Below are positions 19,721 to 36,434 of a stretch of DNA of 37,051 nucleotides, in pieces. Under the pieces are notes generated by a model. That model searched no databases. It was not told where the DNA came from and worked only from the letters and a program-made list of their open reading frames with translations. Source of the stretch: Leptolyngbyaceae cyanobacterium M33_DOE_097 (lineage in GTDB: Bacteria > Cyanobacteriota > Cyanobacteriia > Leptolyngbyales > Leptolyngbyaceae); contig DVDV01000074.1 in NCBI GenBank assembly GCA_015296075.1, positions 1 to 37,051 on the forward strand. The letters are read 5' to 3'. How positions within the stretch are numbered: the stretch's first letter is position 1; each line of letters opens with the position of its first letter. A program made the position numbers and the translations under genes.

Positions 19721-20794
19721 CTACGCCAAAGAACCACCACAAGAGCTACCAGACCCCGCTGTACAGCCAAAACAATGGCGTCGCGTCACTATTTGCCGTT
19801 GCAACCATTGCTGCCGATCAAAATCGCGAATGTGAGGCTGCTGCCCGTTTGGCTGTTGCACCTCTAAATCAAGCATTTGGTTAAAGTCGCAATCAAATAA
19901 GCGTCCATCCCACGAGACAGAAATCGTGTTGCGGCACATTAGCCCTGCGACCGTTGCCGGGTTAAACGCATTCACCAACCGCTCCATATACGCTTGCAAA
20001 TTGCCCGATGCTTCGAGCCATTCCAGATAGCGGGAAATCGGCATGTTGTTGAGCGTGATCAGGCGATCGAAGGTGACGCCGTGATTTTGCAGCAAACCAT
20101 TCTTCCATTCCTGCTCTAGTTTGCTCTGACTGGTTGCCAAAAACGCCCCCACCGGATTGCTCATCAACGTCAAGACGCGCTCAGGGTCGGCCTGACCATA
20201 TCCTACTTGATTGAGGCGCTTAAGAGCTGCGATCGACTGCTCATAGGTACCTGCACCTCGTTGTGCGTCAGTGTTGCGTTGACGGTAGTGGGGCAGCGAA
20301 CAAACCACTTCAACCCCCCGTTCAGCCAACCACTCTGGTAAATCAGACAGCGTTGGCAGCAATAAAACCGTGAGGTTGCAGCGATCGATCACATGCTTAC
20401 CGCGTGCGACACACTGATCCACCAAGTAACGAAAGTGGGGATTGAGTTCGGGTGCCCCGCCAGTAATATCGACGGTGTGGGCTTCGGTTTGGTCTAACGC
20501 CTGCAAACAGGCATCAATAGTTTCCCGATCCATAATTTCTTTGCGATCGGGGCCAGCATCAACGTGACAATGACGACAGGCCATATTGCAAAGCTTGCCC
20601 ACATTGATTTGAAAGATTTCTAGCTTTGCGGGGACAAGCACCTGCCAACCTTGCGCGACTAACGCCGCTGAAAAATTGCCCTGATGAGGGTTCCGCGTGA
20701 GATCCAGTGAATCAAGGAGCTTGAGTTGGTAGTGTGGCTCAGCCAGCTCAGAGTGACGTGTAAGGAGCGAGAGAGTAGCTTTTGGACTGGTCAT
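19721..20794 (-). CDS. arsS: Arsenosugar biosynthesis radical SAM protein ArsS
   Basis: ArsS uses radical SAM chemistry to join a 5'-deoxyadenosyl group to methylated arsenic, starting the dimethylarsinoyl-riboside (arsenosugar) pathway. The 357-residue protein has the 4Fe-4S motif at Cys69, Cys73 and Cys76 (GKLCNMACRHCHVDAGP) and the GGAPELNP motif (112-119). Its C-terminal DUF3641-type domain carries Cys287, Cys302 (SVSWDGRLFDCDFNQML) and CFGCTAGSGSSCGGS (Cys341, Cys344, Cys352), the family's most diagnostic segment. It is the last gene of the five-gene operon, 58 bp after the flavoprotein gene, in the same strand and cluster as arsM. Assignment rests on motif pattern and on arsM nearby, which agree. 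Confidence 0.93.
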   Translation of the reverse strand: MTSPKATLSLLTRHSELAEPHYQLKLLDSLDLTRNPHQGNFSAALVAQGWQVLVPAKLEIFQINVGKLCNMACRHCHVDAGPDRKEIMDRETIDACLQALDQTEAHTVDITGGAPELNPHFRYLVDQCVARGKHVIDRCNLTVLLLPTLSDLPEWLAERGVEVVCSLPHYRQRNTDAQRGAGTYEQSIAALKRLNQVGYGQADPERVLTLMSNPVGAFLATSQSKLEQEWKNGLLQNHGVTFDRLITLNNMPISRYLEWLEASGNLQAYMERLVNAFNPATVAGLMCRNTISVSWDGRLFDCDFNQMLDLEVQQPNGQQPHIRDFDRQQWLQRQIVTRRHCFGCTAGSGSSCGGSLA

Positions 20795-20852
20795 TACCTA
20801 CAAATTAGAAACAAAATCCGAGATTCAAACAAATTGAGTCGAACAGCAACCG

Positions 20853-22400
20853 TTAAGGGAGCTTTGCCAGAATACCTAATAGCGCTTTAGTGCGAGAAGT
20901 GAGAAGCGTGCGGCGGTAAGCGTCGGCTGCTTTTTTGATCGCTTCAGCCTGGGTCGGGTAAGGGTGAATTACACTCGAAAGCTTGCTTAACCCAATTTTG
21001 TGAACGATCGCCGTTGTCACTTCGCTAATCATTTCCCCTGCGTGCCGCGCCACAATCGTCGCCCCCACAATTTGATCCGAACCCTTCTTGTGGTGAATTT
21101 TGAGAAAACCTGTTTCTTCACCATCCGCGATCGCGCGATCGACCTTACTAAAAGGAATTTCAATTGTATCTATCTCAATCCCCTGGGCAGTCGCTTCATG
21201 CTGATATAGCCCGACATGGGCCACTTCAGGGTCAGTGTAAGTTACCCAGGGCATGACCAGGCTACTCAGCTTAGAGCGTCCCAACCCAAACGGTGCGAAT
21301 AAGGCATTCTTGATCACAATCCGAGCGGCGGCATCTGCCGCATGGGTAAACTTCCAATTCATGCAGATATCTCCAGCCGCATAAATCTTGGGATTGGTCG
21401 TTTGCAGGTAGTCATTTACCTGCACCCCTTTACGAGCGTCGTAAGCAACACCGACCGCCTCCAGATTCAGCCCCTCCACATTTGGTGCGCGACCCGCCCC
21501 AACCAGAATTTCATCGACCTCAATGCTGTCAGACTGTCCCCCACTAGAGAAATAGAGCCGCTTTCCAGTCGGTGTTGATTCAACTCGCTCAATGCGGCTG
21601 TTCAAAACAAGGCGAATCTGTTCTTGCAGAAACGTTTGCTGCACAATCTCGGCTGCCGTCGCATCCTCGCGATCCAAAAGATGGGCTTTGTTATGAAACA
21701 GCACCACCTGCGAACCCAAACGCTGAAACGCCTGGGCCAACTCGCACCCAATCGGGCCACCGCCAATTACCGCCAGCCGTTGAGGGCGAGCTGTCAATGA
21801 AAAAACGGTTTCGTTGGTTAAGAAACCCGCTTCTGCCAGCCCTGGAATTTTGGGTTGACTGGCTCTTGCTCCTGTCGCAATCACCGCCTTCTTAAAACGC
21901 AAAATTGTATCCCCAACTTGGAGCGAGTCGCTGGAGCGAAACACACCCTGCCCCAAAAACACGTCTACCCCAATCTCCTGAAACCGCTGAGCCGAGTCGT
22001 GATGACTAATCCCTGCCCGTAGCCGACGCATGCGCTCCATCACGGCAGCAAAATCAACTTGCGGGGCAGCAGAAACATGAATTCCGAAGCGATCGCTGTC
22101 GTAAAACTCGCCTACAACCCGCGCCGAACGAATCACACATTTTGAGGGCACACACCCCACATTGAGACAATCACCGCCCATCAAATGCCGTTCGACCAGA
22201 GCCACTTTGAGTCCGATACCCAGTCCTGCAGCACCCGCCGCCACAACCAAGCCTGCCGTACCAGCCCCAATCACAACCAGGTCATACTTCTCAGCCGGAT
22301 GTGGATTGACCCAATCAGCCGGATGCACCTGAGCCACCAATTCTTGATTAAAACGATCGCGGGGATAGACGATACCCGGCTCAAAACTTAACTCAGTCAT
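20853..22400 (-). CDS. Mercuric-reductase-like FAD disulfide oxidoreductase
   Basis: A 515-residue class I pyridine-nucleotide disulfide oxidoreductase. It has the FAD fold VVIGAGTAGL (about 42-51), the redox disulfide GGDCLNVGCVPSK (Cys78 and Cys83), an NAD(P)-binding AVIGGGPIGCELAQAF, the second FAD motif YAAGDICMNWKF, and the dimer-interface HPYPTQAEA with His479 and Glu486. It lacks the N-terminal heavy-metal domain and the C-terminal Cys pair of true MerA, so mercury reduction is unlikely. An N-terminal extension of about 38 residues precedes the fold. The ATG at 22400 overlaps the stop codon of the upstream TVP38 gene by 8 bp, so the two are coupled. Such a flavoprotein often stands beside TVP38 genes in cyanobacteria; here a thiol- or arsenic-linked redox role is inferred from context only. 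Confidence 0.88.
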   Translation of the reverse strand: MTELSFEPGIVYPRDRFNQELVAQVHPADWVNPHPAEKYDLVVIGAGTAGLVVAAGAAGLGIGLKVALVERHLMGGDCLNVGCVPSKCVIRSARVVGEFYDSDRFGIHVSAAPQVDFAAVMERMRRLRAGISHHDSAQRFQEIGVDVFLGQGVFRSSDSLQVGDTILRFKKAVIATGARASQPKIPGLAEAGFLTNETVFSLTARPQRLAVIGGGPIGCELAQAFQRLGSQVVLFHNKAHLLDREDATAAEIVQQTFLQEQIRLVLNSRIERVESTPTGKRLYFSSGGQSDSIEVDEILVGAGRAPNVEGLNLEAVGVAYDARKGVQVNDYLQTTNPKIYAAGDICMNWKFTHAADAAARIVIKNALFAPFGLGRSKLSSLVMPWVTYTDPEVAHVGLYQHEATAQGIEIDTIEIPFSKVDRAIADGEETGFLKIHHKKGSDQIVGATIVARHAGEMISEVTTAIVHKIGLSKLSSVIHPYPTQAEAIKKAADAYRRTLLTSRTKALLGILAKLP

Positions 22401-23151
22401 TGGTAGTTCCCTCGATTCCGACTTTTTCTGTGAGGATGCGACGAGCAACGCGCGTCACGTAAACGACAACCGCGATCGTCGCAATTAAACCAACCCCATA
22501 AATCACCCACCGCAAAGGAGAATTAGCGGATTGGGTATCGCTTCCAATTCGCGCTAAGCTGCCTGCCAAAGAGCCGAAGTAGACATACATGACGGTTCCT
22601 GGCAACATGCCAATGCAGCCCAAAAAGTAGTCCTTTAAGGAAACGCCTGTTACACCAAAGGCATAGTTCAGCAAATTAAAGGGGAAGATGGGCGAAAGAC
22701 GGGTGAGCAAAACAACTTTGAAGCCTTCTTGCGCCACCGCCGCATCGATCGCCTGAAAGTTGCGATTTCCCTCAATCTTTTGGCTGACCCAATTGCGAGC
22801 CAGGTAGCGCCCTACCAAAAACGCCGCCGTTGCGCCCAACGTGGCACCAATAAAGACATACAGGGAACCCAGCAGAACACCAAATAAAACGCCTGCCCCC
22901 AGCGTCAAAATTGAACCGGGCAAAAAGGCGATCGTGGCAAGAATGTAAACGGCAATAAAGACAACGCCACCCACTACCCCAAGATTGTCGATCCAAACTA
23001 AGGCACCGCGCAGCCACTCTTGTGGATTCAGGCTGTTAGCTCCACTCGTTTGAGCCAGCGCTGGAGTCGTCGTCAGCAAAAACGCGATCGCCCCCAAAAC
23101 AATCCCATACAAATACTGCGGTTTGATTAATCCGCGTCGGTGCCTTAGCAT
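22393..23151 (-). CDS. TVP38/TMEM64 (DedA-like) membrane protein, downstream copy
   Basis: A 252-residue polytopic inner-membrane protein with about six hydrophobic segments. The first is signal-like, ending ALAQ. The family core is clear: FLPGSILTLGAGVLFG, GATLGATAAFLVGRYLAR and LTRLSPIFPFNLLNYAFGVTGVSLKDY. The start at 23151 is chosen over an upstream one at 23208 because GGGAG precedes it at 7 bases and it avoids overlap with arsM. Family members may act in lipid scrambling or transport, but no substrate is known here. It follows arsM by 34 bp and overlaps the flavoprotein gene by 8 bp, so it is firmly inside the arsenosugar operon. Confidence 0.92.
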   Translation of the reverse strand: MLRHRRGLIKPQYLYGIVLGAIAFLLTTTPALAQTSGANSLNPQEWLRGALVWIDNLGVVGGVVFIAVYILATIAFLPGSILTLGAGVLFGVLLGSLYVFIGATLGATAAFLVGRYLARNWVSQKIEGNRNFQAIDAAVAQEGFKVVLLTRLSPIFPFNLLNYAFGVTGVSLKDYFLGCIGMLPGTVMYVYFGSLAGSLARIGSDTQSANSPLRWVIYGVGLIATIAVVVYVTRVARRILTEKVGIEGTTND

Positions 23152-23185
23152 GGCAAGCTCCCAGTTTTTTCTAAAGGTCGATGAT

Positions 23186-24154
23186 TTAGCAGCAACCGCC
23201 CCCAACATAGTGCCAGGTTGAGTCGGTCACCATAATCTCTTGGGGGAATTGCAGCGCTAACTTAGCGGCAGTTTTATCACACACCGCCGCCGGAATTCCC
23301 TTTTGGAGTAGGTGCCCGGCCTGATCATCCAGCAACGACTCAGAACCACAATAAATCGCCGTTTTGCCCGTAAAGACACAGGCCCCATCTTCAGGAATCG
23401 CCACCTTAAACGCAACCGAATCCAGACTTTCGAGCAGCAGCGGTTCATCTAACTCATAAGTTTGCGAGTCTAGCAGCCGATAGGGACGCCGCGCCCGAAT
23501 TTCGACTTGCCCAAACCCGGCATGAATCAATTGCTGAATGTACTTCTCATAAGTGAGTGCGCCCGACAAACACATGGCTCGCAACCGTTCATCGTTCTGC
23601 AAATGCAGCGGAATCGGACGAGTCGCGATCGGGTCACTCATAATTAAGCGACCACCGCACTTTAAGACCCGTCGCGCTTCTTGTAGGGCACGCTGCAAAT
23701 CCTCTGGCTCAAAAATATTAAACAAACAGTTCTGAGCCACCACATCTACCGAGTTATCGGGGATAGGGAGATGAAACGCATCGCCCTCTAAGATCTGGAC
23801 AAAATCGGGCGAAAACCAGGAATTTTCTTGAGCTGCCAGCTCTAAGTTACGGGTTGCCGCCGATCGCATCTCAGCCACCGGGTCAACCGCAATCACCCCA
23901 CCCGGACGCCGACAAAAATAAGCGAATTGGAGCGCTTCTAAACCACCGCCGACCCCAATATAGAGAACCGTTGGGTTGTTCCCTAACTCAGCCGGATGCA
24001 CCGTCGTGCCACAGCCATAGTTCATCTGGTGCATGATTTCTGGCACCTTTAAGTCGGGGAACTGGAGTGGTGCCGATTGCACACAGCATAAGCCTGCTTG
24101 TGGCGTTTCAGCGGCTTCTGCATAGAATTTAGCGGTTGTTTCAAGATAAGTCAT
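23186..24154 (-). CDS. arsM: Arsenite methyltransferase ArsM (arsenosugar type)
   Basis: ArsM transfers methyl groups from SAM to arsenite, giving methylated arsenicals that ArsS then uses. The 322-residue protein has a Rossmann methyltransferase domain with motif I LYIGVGGGLEAL (64-75) and Asp91 for SAM ribose. Cysteines at the places expected for arsenite binding are present: GLCC (Cys23, Cys24), NYGCGTTV (Cys48), QNCLFNIF (Cys143) and AMCLSGALTYEKY (Cys195), plus a terminal GGGCC pair. The C-terminal third, after about residue 240, is an extension seen in the arsenosugar-linked group. The start at 24154 gives MTYLETTAKFYAEAAE, the family N-terminus, and overlaps the upstream TVP38 gene by 14 bp. 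A longer in-frame extension upstream is rejected as it lies within that gene. Confidence 0.93.
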   Translation of the reverse strand: MTYLETTAKFYAEAAETPQAGLCCVQSAPLQFPDLKVPEIMHQMNYGCGTTVHPAELGNNPTVLYIGVGGGLEALQFAYFCRRPGGVIAVDPVAEMRSAATRNLELAAQENSWFSPDFVQILEGDAFHLPIPDNSVDVVAQNCLFNIFEPEDLQRALQEARRVLKCGGRLIMSDPIATRPIPLHLQNDERLRAMCLSGALTYEKYIQQLIHAGFGQVEIRARRPYRLLDSQTYELDEPLLLESLDSVAFKVAIPEDGACVFTGKTAIYCGSESLLDDQAGHLLQKGIPAAVCDKTAAKLALQFPQEIMVTDSTWHYVGGGCC

Positions 24155-24926
24155 GAGGATCCTCAACAGGTAGAAAAGTAGATGAAACCGTCGTTGGCAC
24201 AGCAGATAAACCCAACTCTGCCAGATACTTTTTTGCCAAACGAGAAAGATAAAGGGTTGTTGCGATCGCACTCAGCAATCCAATAATCCGAATTCCCCAA
24301 AGCAGTGGGTGCAGTTCAGCCGGAAGGGAGGCCATTACACTACCCGCCCGATCAAGCTGAGCAAAATCGCGCGTGAGAGAACCGAGATAGACATACAACA
24401 ACGTGCCAGGAAAGATGCCAAACGAGCCAAATACATAGTCTTTTAAGGATACCTGGGTCACGCCAAATAGGTAATTAAGCAAATTGAAAGGAAACAGGGG
24501 GGAGAGGCGCGTTAAAAACACAATCTTGCAGCCTTGTTGCGTCACTGCCTGATTTAACCCTTGAAAGTAGCGCAAATGCCCCCACCTCTGACAAACCCAC
24601 TCGCGCGCCACATAACGTCCAACTAGAAAGGCGATCGTCGCTCCCAAGACGGCAGCCAGCAACCCATACACCAAACCCCAAAACCAGCCAAATAGAACAC
24701 CAGCCGCTAATGCCAACAGAGAACCCGGCATAAAGCAAACAGTCGCCAGGTTATAGACCAGGATGTAGGCCACTACGCCCCAATGCTCCATCTGTTGAAT
24801 CACGACTAAGCAACGGTGCAGCGACAGCGACAGCCAACTGTGACCACAAGCGATCGCCAAACCTAGCCCTAGCCCTACCAGGGCAACAACATATCGGCAG
24901 CGCTGTTTGCGAGTGCATTTCATCAC
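24141..24926 (-). CDS. TVP38/TMEM64 (DedA-like) membrane protein, first gene of ars operon
   Basis: A 261-residue inner-membrane protein, clearly a paralogue of the one two genes downstream: MPGSLLALAAGVLFGWFWG, GATIAFLVGRYVAREW and LTRLSPLFPFNLLNYLFGVTQVSLKDY match segment for segment. The N-terminus is hydrophobic but has no signal cleavage site, and the C-terminal tail of about 25 residues is unlike the other copy. As first gene of the operon, its 14-bp overlap with arsM suggests translational coupling. It could move an arsenic intermediate or its conjugate across the membrane, or adjust the membrane; neither is shown by sequence. No ArsR-type regulator gene is next to it, so the control of the operon is not visible here. 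Confidence 0.92.
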   Translation of the reverse strand: MMKCTRKQRCRYVVALVGLGLGLAIACGHSWLSLSLHRCLVVIQQMEHWGVVAYILVYNLATVCFMPGSLLALAAGVLFGWFWGLVYGLLAAVLGATIAFLVGRYVAREWVCQRWGHLRYFQGLNQAVTQQGCKIVFLTRLSPLFPFNLLNYLFGVTQVSLKDYVFGSFGIFPGTLLYVYLGSLTRDFAQLDRAGSVMASLPAELHPLLWGIRIIGLLSAIATTLYLSRLAKKYLAELGLSAVPTTVSSTFLPVEDPHDLS

Positions 24927-25031: not shown

Positions 25032-25063
25032 AAAAAAAGAGAGTAAGTTTTACCCTACTCTCT
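25032..25063 (-). terminator. Strong rho-independent terminator
   Basis: On the minus strand AGAGAGTA and TACTCTCT form an 8-bp stem around ten bases, followed by a run of seven T. It ends the PEP-CTERM gene transcript about 30 bp after the stop and insulates the ars operon from it. Confidence 0.92.
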
Positions 25064-33810: not shown

Positions 33811-34587
33811 CTAAAAACTCATTGCTCTTTCATCTGATTCTAATCGGTATAAATCAGCAAATAGCTCAGAAGTCACCGAGCCAGTCGGTAAATCAAACAA
33901 AATCCGGCCTTTTCGTAGACCAATTAGGCGCTGGCAAAACATTTGAGCCAGTTCTACAGTATGTAAACTAACGATCAGGGTATGGTTCTTTTGGGTACTC
34001 AAATCTTTTAGCAAAGTCATCATCTCACGACTCCGCTCTGGGTCAAGACTTGCCACAGGTTCATCTGCCAAAATCACCGCTGGATCCTGAACGAGAACTC
34101 GTGCCAGCGCCACTCGCTGTTGTTGTCCACCAGAAAGTTGGTCAGTTCGGGCGTAGAGCTTTTCGGGGATGCCAACCTGGGTTAGCGCCGCCGCCGCTTT
34201 GTCGCGCTCAGCCGGGTAAACCAGCGAAAGACAAGCTTTTGCAAACGACCACCGTCCTAAATTTCCGGCATTGACATTGTGGATCACTCGCAAGTTATCA
34301 ACTAAGTGAAATTGTTGGTAAATCGTACCAATTTGGCGTTGAACCCGTCGCAATTGTCGCGGTTTCAAGTGATTCAGATTTTGCCCCAAGACACTGATTT
34401 CCCCAGAAGTGGGCAAAAGTGTGCCATTTAACAGGCGAATCAGGGTACTTTTGCCAGCCCCACTCGCCCCCAAAAGCGCAACGCGCTCACCTGGCTCAAC
34501 CCGCAAACTGATATTGTGCAGAGCAGCCGTTGAGCCAAAACGGTGAGACACGTTGGTTAATTCAAAAATGGGAGCCGCGATCGCCAT
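33811..34587 (-). CDS. ABC transporter ATPase, phosphonate (PhnC)/selenate type
   Basis: A 258-residue ABC ATPase. Walker A is GASGAGKST (40-48), the Q-loop lies in IGTIYQQFHLVDNL, the signature is LSGGQQQRVALARVL, Walker B is VILADEPVASLDP, and the switch His is in VSLHTVELAQ. The sequence resembles PhnC, the ATPase of phosphonate/phosphite importers. The substrate-binding protein gene is directly upstream (27 bp gap). A permease gene would be expected next, but none is there: the following gene is CPP1-like. The permease must be elsewhere in the genome or lost. Confidence 0.9.
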   Translation of the reverse strand: MAIAAPIFELTNVSHRFGSTAALHNISLRVEPGERVALLGASGAGKSTLIRLLNGTLLPTSGEISVLGQNLNHLKPRQLRRVQRQIGTIYQQFHLVDNLRVIHNVNAGNLGRWSFAKACLSLVYPAERDKAAAALTQVGIPEKLYARTDQLSGGQQQRVALARVLVQDPAVILADEPVASLDPERSREMMTLLKDLSTQKNHTLIVSLHTVELAQMFCQRLIGLRKGRILFDLPTGSVTSELFADLYRLESDERAMSF

Positions 34588-34614
34588 GCCTTTGACGTGA
34601 TTTAGAGGAATGCA

Positions 34615-35538
34615 CTACTTAATCTTGCCAATTTGACGACCAATCTCCTCGATTTTGGCGTAGTTGCCGTCTTTCGTCTCGATAAACTTCTCAGCGCCAA
34701 ATAATTCCAAAATTTCTTTTTGCTCTGGCACAGTCGGGTCAAGCTTTAGCAAAGCCGCCTGCACCTTTTGGGAAAAATCTTCGCCGTAGCGCTCTTTGAC
34801 AGCCGGATTGATCACCCAGTGATAGTCAAAATATTCCGGTGTCCGCCAGATCACCCCCACCTTATTGGGATCAACCTTGCCCTCTTTGACCCGCTTTTGC
34901 CAGACTTGCTCATTCAGCGCACCCGCCTCATACGTACCCGCCTGCACCAGCTCAAGCGTTGCATCGTGGTTTTTAGAGAATCCGGGTTGACCTTTAAAAT
35001 CTTCTAGCTTGACCCCAGCTTGCTGCAAAAAATATTGGGGCATCAGCCGACCCGACGTTGAGGACTCACTCCCAAATGTGAATGTACGGCCCTTCAAATT
35101 TGCCAGGTCCTTAATATCCTGAGCGGCTGGGATACCCGACTTTTTGTTGGCAATGAAAACGCTGTGAAACCGGGCATCAATATCACGCTGGGCGATCGCG
35201 GCAGCTCCCGGCACCTGGAGCCGTGCTTGCACCCCCGTCAACCCACCAAACCAAACCAGATCGAGATCTCCTACCTGAAAGGCTGTCACAGCAGCGGTGT
35301 AGTCCGTTACAGGCTTGTACACAACCGGGACTTTCAGCTCAGATTCTAAATACTTGGCCAATTTATCGTAGAGCCGCTGCAGCTTTTCAGGGTCTTGATC
35401 TGGGATTGCTCCTGTCACCAGGGGTTTTGGTGGTGTAGCAGGGGGCGACCCAGTTGAGGTGTTGTTACTAGGAGTTGGGGCACACCCTGCAAAACTGAGA
35501 GATAGCAGCAGCAAACCAGACAGAAAGAAACTTTTCAT
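34615..35538 (-). CDS. Substrate-binding lipoprotein of a phosphonate/selenate-type ABC importer
   Basis: A 307-residue exported lipoprotein. The signal MKSFFLSGLLLLSLSFAGC carries lipobox Cys19, followed by a Thr/Pro/Ser-rich linker. The body is a PhnD-like two-lobe binding protein: GAIPDQDPEKLQRLYDKLAKYLESEL, KPVTDYTAAVTAFQVGDLDLVWFGGLTG, then QRDIDARFHSVFIANKKSGI and RTFTFGSESSTSGRLMPQYFL. The IPDQDPEKL and LVWFGGLTGVQAR segments fit the group annotated as putative selenate-binding proteins; the oxyanion cannot be proved from sequence, and phosphite or phosphonate remain possible. It precedes the ATPase gene by 27 bp. The permease gene is not next to the pair. It is expected in the periplasm, anchored to the inner membrane. 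Confidence 0.85.
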   Translation of the reverse strand: MKSFFLSGLLLLSLSFAGCAPTPSNNTSTGSPPATPPKPLVTGAIPDQDPEKLQRLYDKLAKYLESELKVPVVYKPVTDYTAAVTAFQVGDLDLVWFGGLTGVQARLQVPGAAAIAQRDIDARFHSVFIANKKSGIPAAQDIKDLANLKGRTFTFGSESSTSGRLMPQYFLQQAGVKLEDFKGQPGFSKNHDATLELVQAGTYEAGALNEQVWQKRVKEGKVDPNKVGVIWRTPEYFDYHWVINPAVKERYGEDFSQKVQAALLKLDPTVPEQKEILELFGAEKFIETKDGNYAKIEEIGRQIGKIK

Positions 35539-35654
35539 TCAAACCTTTGGCGATCGCAATTCCAACCATGCAGCTTATCATCTCTCCAAAGAATTGCTAA
35601 ACCAATTCGGAAACCTCAGCCCAGCGACATCTTAAAAGAGGCATTTTTGGCAGT

Positions 35655-36434
35655 CTACTGTATCTCGACCGAAAAACCGTAGGAATAACCCTTGTAATTT
35701 GAGTCCAGTTGAATTGTGTACTCCCCGGCAGCAGGCAACTGCCCCGACCATTGTGGCCGATTTTCATCACTCCCATCCACCACCAACTTACCATTTGGCG
35801 CTGTGATAAATGGAAAGGGGCCTTCAGTCCGCTTGACGGTCAGCTTTTGTCCTTGCTTGGCTGCAATCACATAGCGGTGAGAACCTGTGCCAACAAAGCG
35901 ATCGTCAATTTGAATTGTTTGCCCTGCATTCAGTTGAATGCGCTCAACCTTCTCATTACAGCCTTTCTTTGTCCGGTTTGCTGAGATCCAACCTTGCACC
36001 GGGTTAGAAACTTGGAGCCAGCCATCTTTTTCGGCTTCCACGCTGACGTAGGTGCCATTTGTCAAAGTGCCAACTACCTGCGTACTAACCGTGCCTGGAG
36101 CCGATCGCACATTCAACGGCGACTCCGGATCATTTACCTGCACCATTGTCACCTTACACGACTCCACTTTGCGTGACGGAGATTCGCTGGTGCTCGGTTT
36201 GGCAGGCGGTTTAGCAGGTTGTTGGGGAACGGGTTGAGTCGGCTTCGAGGTTGGGGTTGAAACCACGGGTGGAGGTGTCTCAAGGCCGGAAGCCGTTACC
36301 GTGGGACTAACAGTGCTACTGGGTGCGGTAGCGAGTGGATCAGTAGTCGGTTTAATCAGGGCATAGGTGATACCCCCAGCCGCCGCAACTGCGATCGCGC
36401 CTGCCAAAATCAATGCTGAAGTTTTGTCTTGCAT
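35655..36434 (-). CDS. Membrane-anchored SH3b-domain protein (259 aa)
   Basis: An N-terminal hydrophobic helix (about 6-26, SALILAGAIAVAAAGGITYALI) anchors or exports the protein. A long Thr/Pro/Ser-rich linker (about 30-90) leads to a bacterial SH3 domain (about 95-160): VNDPESPLNVRSAPGTVSTQVVGTLTNGTYVSVEAEKDGWLQV...GWISANRTKKGC. Such domains often bind peptidoglycan. A beta-rich C-terminal domain (about 165-259) with RFVGTGSHRYVIAAKQGQKL, PPAAGEYTIQL-like AAGEYTIQLDS and YSYGFSVEIQ resembles the domains added to envelope proteins to bind sugars or inhibit lysozyme; I name no activity. It should face the periplasm. The gene appears to be transcribed alone; the next minus-strand gene begins 116 bp on. 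Confidence 0.82.
   Translation of the reverse strand: MQDKTSALILAGAIAVAAAGGITYALIKPTTDPLATAPSSTVSPTVTASGLETPPPVVSTPTSKPTQPVPQQPAKPPAKPSTSESPSRKVESCKVTMVQVNDPESPLNVRSAPGTVSTQVVGTLTNGTYVSVEAEKDGWLQVSNPVQGWISANRTKKGCNEKVERIQLNAGQTIQIDDRFVGTGSHRYVIAAKQGQKLTVKRTEGPFPFITAPNGKLVVDGSDENRPQWSGQLPAAGEYTIQLDSNYKGYSYGFSVEIQ

Follow-up and report, generated by a model that had tools for sequence, protein, structure and literature searches.

The 37,051-nucleotide stretch of the Leptolyngbyaceae cyanobacterium M33_DOE_097 analyzed here (contig DVDV01000074.1; hereafter the window) contains an arsenosugar operon in which two genes for TVP38 membrane proteins and one gene for a flavoprotein are interleaved with arsM and arsS. 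In the reading we favor, the two TVP38 proteins join the flavoprotein in a redox unit that is tethered to the membrane, serves the arsenosugar/arsenolipid pathway, and may keep arsenic trivalent for ArsS. Sequence comparisons make it very likely that TVP38 and the flavoprotein are linked to the arsenosugar pathway; the specific redox step, in which dimethylated arsenic would be kept trivalent for ArsS, is a tentative proposal. A role in the pathway is supported by the recurrence of the combination across several families of cyanobacteria; the strongest support is that the two proteins are fused at most of the ArsS loci examined in one proteobacterial order.

Arsenosugars and arsenolipids are major organic forms of arsenic, yet it is poorly established which proteins carry out the steps around ArsS. 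TVP38 and the flavoprotein are probably an overlooked part of the arsenosugar pathway, so that two families that the searchable text does not connect with arsenosugars now appear as likely pathway members. Searches of the open-access literature found no publication joining TVP38 with arsenosugars, although such a link may be published elsewhere. In one of them, a single paper with TVP38 stood among the 15 of 25 matches listed, and it deals with indium (PMC8679861). A term search of the available text of an arsenic-response proteomics paper (PMC10138600) returned nothing on these genes.

The operon comprises the following genes, from the first to the last:

24141..24926, minus strand: TVP38b, VTT-domain membrane protein of 'type B' (PF09335, 101.2 bits), starting at either GTG 24926 or ATG 24923
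23186..24154, minus strand: arsM, arsenosugar-type arsenite methyltransferase of 322 residues (NF038099, 569.9 bits, cut-off 400), ATG start at 24154, overlapping TVP38b by 14 bp
22393..23151, minus strand: TVP38a, VTT-domain membrane protein of the 'type A' clade (PF09335, 103.5 bits), ATG start at 23151, after a 34-bp gap from arsM
20853..22400, minus strand: flavoprotein, flavin adenine dinucleotide (FAD)-dependent pyridine nucleotide-disulfide oxidoreductase of 515 residues (NF004991, 863.9 bits, cut-off 620; motifs), ATG start at 22400, overlapping TVP38a by 8 bp
19721..20794, minus strand: arsS, radical SAM arsenosugar enzyme of 357 residues (TIGR04167, 431.6 bits, cut-off 300; PF12345, 183 bits), after a 58-bp gap from the flavoprotein gene

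The list of open reading frames (ORFs) and the sequence itself both give the order TVP38b-arsM-TVP38a-flavoprotein-arsS with junctions of -14, +34, -8, and +58 bp, as the initial annotation had described. This spacing suggests that the five genes are co-transcribed.

Recurrence of TVP38 and flavoprotein genes around arsS

Of 194 genomes sampled across the phylum, 82 had ArsS over the cut-off, the window's own genome among them; together they contain 83 loci. The neighborhoods of the 82 ArsS loci outside the window, together with one relic, were searched with the window proteins. Nineteen of the 82 ArsS genomes, from 11 of 25 families (window included), carry TVP38 no more than 5 kb from ArsS; about one genome is the estimated chance expectation at the TVP38 density of the own genome (8 per 7 Mb). 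Almost all TVP38 copies within this distance (26 of 28) lie on the ArsS strand, and in 16 genomes TVP38 is located directly 3' of ArsS. The five-gene order of the window, for which a search across cyanobacterial genomes had been suggested initially, was absent from every other locus examined, and a conserved order was rejected because the content recurs while the order varies. Loci L061 and L073 show TVP38-arsM-arsS-TVP38-flavoprotein, and in L108 arsM-arsS is followed by two TVP38 genes and the flavoprotein gene. The Pseudanabaena galeata plasmid pPg_02 carries TVP38-flavoprotein-arsM-TVP38-arsS with arsR and pst genes nearby, a Pseudanabaena metagenome-assembled genome (MAG; L161) has the five-gene set in another order, and in L083 a TVP38-flavoprotein-TVP38 block stands head to head with arsS.

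The flavoprotein was detected over the cut-off in 53 of the 80 cyanobacterial genomes searched, a set that omitted 12 family-19 genomes. It is present in 50 of 70 genomes with ArsS and 3 of 10 without it (Fisher p 0.026, uncorrected for kinship). The distance between flavoprotein and ArsS is at most 6 kb in 5 of the 50 cyanobacterial genomes with both, where about 0.1 would be expected by chance in 5.5-Mb genomes. We also examined 30 cyanobacterial flavoprotein loci, including the best-scoring ones and the window's, with flanks of 1.5 kb only; a same-strand TVP38 gene lies upstream of the flavoprotein gene in 26 of them, and two TVP38 genes do so in 6.

In the tree of TVP38 proteins, TVP38a belongs to a starred clade of 32 rows (96/83), most of which adjoin the flavoprotein; this 'type A' clade accounts for the majority of the TVP38 copies that immediately precede the flavoprotein gene in the cyanobacterial loci examined. 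TVP38b, whose long branch leaves its exact placement unsure, falls in an 18-row 'type B' group (90/82, not starred) with many of the paralogs further upstream. A further starred clade of 13 rows (96/94) consists mostly of TVP38 proteins directly 3' of arsS, and in the Pseudanabaena loci types A and B have swapped places around the flavoprotein. Since the TVP38-flavoprotein block mostly stands apart from ArsS and the TVP38 types group mostly by position in the tree, it appears that in this operon arsM and arsS were combined with a TVP38-TVP38-flavoprotein block of older origin.

The strongest evidence was found outside the cyanobacteria. On ArsS-carrying plasmids, searches identified a 'bifunctional TVP38/TMEM64 family protein/FAD-dependent oxidoreductase', and plasmids of Acinetobacter and Cupriavidus have TVP38 and the flavoprotein in an ArsS context both fused and as separate genes. 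We describe here the order of the Betaproteobacteria MAG of L163 (presumably Burkholderiales; the G195 order), in which 80 of 250 genomes have ArsS. Among 60 of its 83 ArsS loci, a TVP38-flavoprotein fusion aligned over both parts is present in 45, and any such flavoprotein, fused or not, in 49, some of the other loci ending at a contig edge; the match in L349 covers only the flavoprotein part of the fusion query and was not counted as a fusion. Each of the 49 flavoprotein genes shares the strand of ArsS, and 26 of them lie at most 400 bp from it. The same 60 loci contain relatives of the arsenosugar glycosyltransferases, TIGR04283-like in 43 and TIGR04282-like in 36, and a sterol-desaturase-like gene in 3. 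As a control, the first 20 genomes listed with ArsS and the first 20 without it in this order were compared: the full-length fusion occurs in 16 of the former and 1 of the latter (Fisher p 2e-6, uncorrected for kinship), and three further ArsS-positive genomes carry a separate flavoprotein (365-378 bits).

Identity of the operon proteins and their genomic setting

Both arsenosugar enzymes named in the initial annotation exceed their curated cut-offs, ArsM across the whole of its model. ArsS has a CNMACRHC motif and a C-terminal DUF3641 domain, and the cysteines C69, C73, and C76 of the radical SAM CxxxCxxC motif, together with C341, C344, and C352 of the conserved C-terminal region, are invariant across 16 sequences. 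The window ArsS is a minority type among cyanobacteria. It is 37-45% identical to most cyanobacterial ArsS proteins examined, and 45-51% to a few, mainly from outside the class. The identity rises to 72-77% for a small group (L062, L083, L102, and the Pseudanabaena plasmid copy) and reaches 67% and 66% for MAGs labeled Deltaproteobacteria and Betaproteobacteria, respectively; these values, set against the 37-45%, suggest that the window ArsS was acquired by horizontal transfer.

Other ArsS loci differ in their surroundings. In many cyanobacterial loci, L053, L067, L070, L076, L084, and L089 among them, arsS is preceded by a different ArsM, which scores about 74-100 bits against the window ArsM and falls under the cut-off of the arsenosugar ArsM model. 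In L121 (genome G167), arsS and arsM are relics, the former with stop codons, and the flavoprotein is retained in the genome. A gene judged by eye to be PiT-phosphate-transporter-like lies near arsS and on its strand in 5 of 83 loci, including L065:7279-8238.

By its model scores and motifs, the flavoprotein is an LPD/MerA-like disulfide oxidoreductase and not MerA. It passes the FAD-containing oxidoreductase model NF004991 and misses the cut-offs for MerA (TIGR02053, 392.5 bits vs 454.45) and dihydrolipoyl dehydrogenase (TIGR01350, 362.6 bits vs 408.8). A redox pair, C78-x4-C83, and an LPD-type HPYPTQAE motif near the C-terminus were identified. The redox cysteine pair is found in all 104 flavoprotein rows gathered, which include duplicates of the window copy and a few outgroup oxidoreductases. 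Vicinal C-terminal cysteines are a MerA motif, and this pair occurs in none of the 104 rows, the window's included; no HMA domain is among the Pfam matches of the flavoprotein. The earlier label 'mercuric-reductase-like' thus applies in the broad sense and not to MerA proper.

These features bear on the explanation that the genes are simply an operon for resistance to arsenic or mercury that includes a mercuric reductase. The record of the Pseudanabaena plasmid does label the homolog 'mercuric reductase', and, by sequence, MerA (5x1y, 285.6 bits) is the closest protein of solved structure. A MerA or mercury operon was nevertheless rejected on the missed cut-off, the absent terminal cysteine pair, and the lack of an HMA domain, while arsM and arsS are of arsenosugar types, no ArsR is encoded on the contig, and Acr3 lies elsewhere. 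We regard this explanation as highly improbable.

The initial annotation was right that the window has no arsR: HTH_5/ArsR gave zero matches on the window contig and 10 elsewhere in the genome. No ArsB or ArsC was named among the 28 window ORFs scanned (8 against both NCBIfam and Pfam, 10 against NCBIfam only, and 10 against Pfam only), the arsB and arsC models themselves not having been run over the window. Acr3, for arsenite efflux (417 bits, cut-off 282.8), is encoded on contig C316 (L377), where its gene adjoins a 134-residue ORF weakly similar to SO_0444/SaoE efflux transporters. With no HTH_5 match on the window contig and Acr3 on C316, the operon does not fit a classical ars resistance operon of arsR and an efflux pump. 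Contig C128 of the same genome (L369:742-2172) encodes a 476-residue TIGR04282-TIGR04283 fusion of the arsenosugar glycosyltransferase families, over both cut-offs.

One further feature was noted next to the operon:

25038..25063, minus strand: terminator-like hairpin with a 10-pair stem and a T run (consensus match only)

It sits between the operon and an upstream PEP-CTERM gene; the terminator scan gave 7 sites in total vs 8.3 expected in the region, which is not above chance. About 9 kb from the operon, positions 33811-36434 hold ABC transporter genes encoding a substrate-binding protein that passes TIGR04553 ('putative selenate ABC transporter', 355.6 bits, cut-off 250), a PhnC-like ATPase, and a 259-residue ORF without a match.

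A putative membrane redox unit and its alternatives

Because TVP38 and the flavoprotein are fused in Proteobacteria, we propose that they act together. Together they would constitute a single dithiol redox unit, driven by NAD(P)H and tethered to the membrane, with TVP38 positioning the redox reaction there. The unit would keep dimethylated arsenic trivalent, either directly or via a small thiol, and the trivalent dimethylated arsenic would then be adenosylated by ArsS. A step at trivalent arsenic is favored because ArsS acts on trivalent dimethylarsenic. Both TVP38 proteins exceed the PF09335 gathering score of 33.9. An AlphaFold model of TVP38a built from 4 sequences, to be compared with the DedA fold and its two re-entrant helices, had a mean predicted local distance difference test (pLDDT) score of 45.7 and was set aside.

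Several observations weigh against a dedicated redox unit of this kind. Of the 50 cyanobacterial genomes that have both genes, 45 showed no flavoprotein gene up to 6 kb from ArsS, contig ends possibly hiding a few cases. Ten of the 70 ArsS-positive genomes have neither a flavoprotein over the cut-off nor TVP38 near ArsS, and TVP38 is near ArsS in none of the 12 family-19 genomes, which lay outside the flavoprotein search. Among the 80 named ArsS loci closest to that of the window, mostly from Bacteroidota, Planctomycetota, and Nitrospira MAGs and many of them on short contigs, only L161 and L227 have TVP38 and the flavoprotein nearby, and none of 30 loci from the class of G194 (by our guess Nitrospiria) has both within 1.5 kb of ArsS. 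A universal ArsS neighbor was rejected on these two counts, and ArsS does not in general need a TVP38-flavoprotein unit beside it. Neither Pseudanabaena copy of the flavoprotein matched the pattern used for the LPD-type His/Glu motif, which also missed 47 of the 49 flavoproteins in the G195 order. Cyanobacterial flavoproteins cluster with proteins of Variovorax and Acidiphilium and not with the fused ones; these relatives neighbor sugar-metabolism genes, and the Acidiphilium protein lacks both redox cysteines. Fused and cyanobacterial flavoproteins form separate, well-supported clades. Given the separate clades and the sugar-metabolism neighbors, the family is not arsenic-specific and its link to ArsS may have arisen twice or more, which would speak for a functional pull and against a single dedicated family.

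The claim of the initial annotation that these proteins serve the arsenosugar pathway is therefore partly sustained: the recurrence and the fusions support it, and the separation of flavoprotein and ArsS in most cyanobacterial genomes does not. TVP38 and flavoprotein genes unlinked to arsM and arsS in most genomes had been named there as evidence to the contrary, and this is partly what was observed, the flavoprotein being seen near ArsS in only 5 of 50 genomes.

The same separation would fit a general thiol-redox or metal-stress module that shares arsenic neighborhoods through metal(loid) stress and not through arsenosugars. Members of the flavoprotein family occur in other gene contexts, and a DedA protein has been linked to indium extrusion in the available text of one report (PMC8679861). 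However, 45 fusions at 60 loci, and a fusion in 16 of 20 ArsS-positive vs 1 of 20 ArsS-negative genomes, seem more specific than such a module would lead one to expect, and the neighbors at the loci of the G195 order are arsenosugar-type genes. We consider a general stress module improbable.

The main rival concerns the TVP38 proteins, which might act like scramblases on an arsenosugar lipid or its precursor, transferring it across a membrane or from one membrane to another, with the flavoprotein being secondary. According to the accessible text of a survey, DedA proteins of COG0398 resemble eukaryotic phospholipid scramblases, and they are told from those of COG0586 by lacking the acidic and basic residues of undecaprenyl phosphate (UndP) flippases (PMC10127716). 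Arsenolipid production in Synechocystis is named in the title of a cited reference, and the glycosyltransferase relatives and the sterol-desaturase-like gene at the proteobacterial loci would suit a lipid product. The scramblase activity of bacterial COG0398 proteins is, as far as the same text goes, only proposed (PMC10127716), and lipid movement leaves unexplained why the fused partner of TVP38 is a disulfide oxidoreductase. Lipid movement is thus an unlikely explanation, which we nevertheless take more seriously than the other alternatives.

We return to the redox unit, of which a bolder version can be formulated. TVP38 and the flavoprotein may be a dedicated arsenosugar/arsenolipid membrane redox machine, assembled separately in cyanobacteria (as separate genes) and in Proteobacteria (mostly fused). 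It would explain the commonest fusion of COG0398 DedA proteins, and Synechocystis Slr0305 would be an arsenolipid-pathway protein. We find this version quite possible without counting on it.

Comparison with known systems

MerA resembles the window flavoprotein in its fold family and its C-x4-C redox pair; the differences lie in the C-terminal cysteine pair, the HMA domain, and the MerA score, as described above. The known cyanobacterial arsenosugar pathway consists of ArsM and ArsS, and here both enzymes are encoded in one operon; in contrast to that pathway, two TVP38 genes and a flavoprotein gene are interleaved with arsM and arsS.

In Synechocystis, slr0304 presumably encodes ArsS. The TVP38/DedA protein Slr0305 has the locus number two after slr0303, which is designated ArsM in the published text available. 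Slr0305 is thus like the window proteins in being a TVP38 protein, and the numbering fits the ArsM-ArsS-TVP38 order of L067 and L093, whereas its published discussion, in the text available, concerns the emergence of thylakoids; a term search for 'arsen' found no match in the accessible text of the publications discussing it for thylakoids.

A further close counterpart is the proteobacterial bifunctional TVP38/FAD-dependent oxidoreductase (COG0398 DedA with PF07992/PF02852), which brings the same two protein types near ArsS. It is one chain, whereas the window has separate genes, and the flavoproteins belong to separate clades; two fused proteobacterial flavoproteins score 483 and 478 bits on NF004991, under the cut-off that the window copy passes. 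PF07992/PF02852 is the commonest fusion partner of COG0398 DedA proteins, and the survey reporting this draws no arsenic link in its available text (PMC10127716). The arsenosugar association would give a functional context to this widespread DedA-oxidoreductase fusion.

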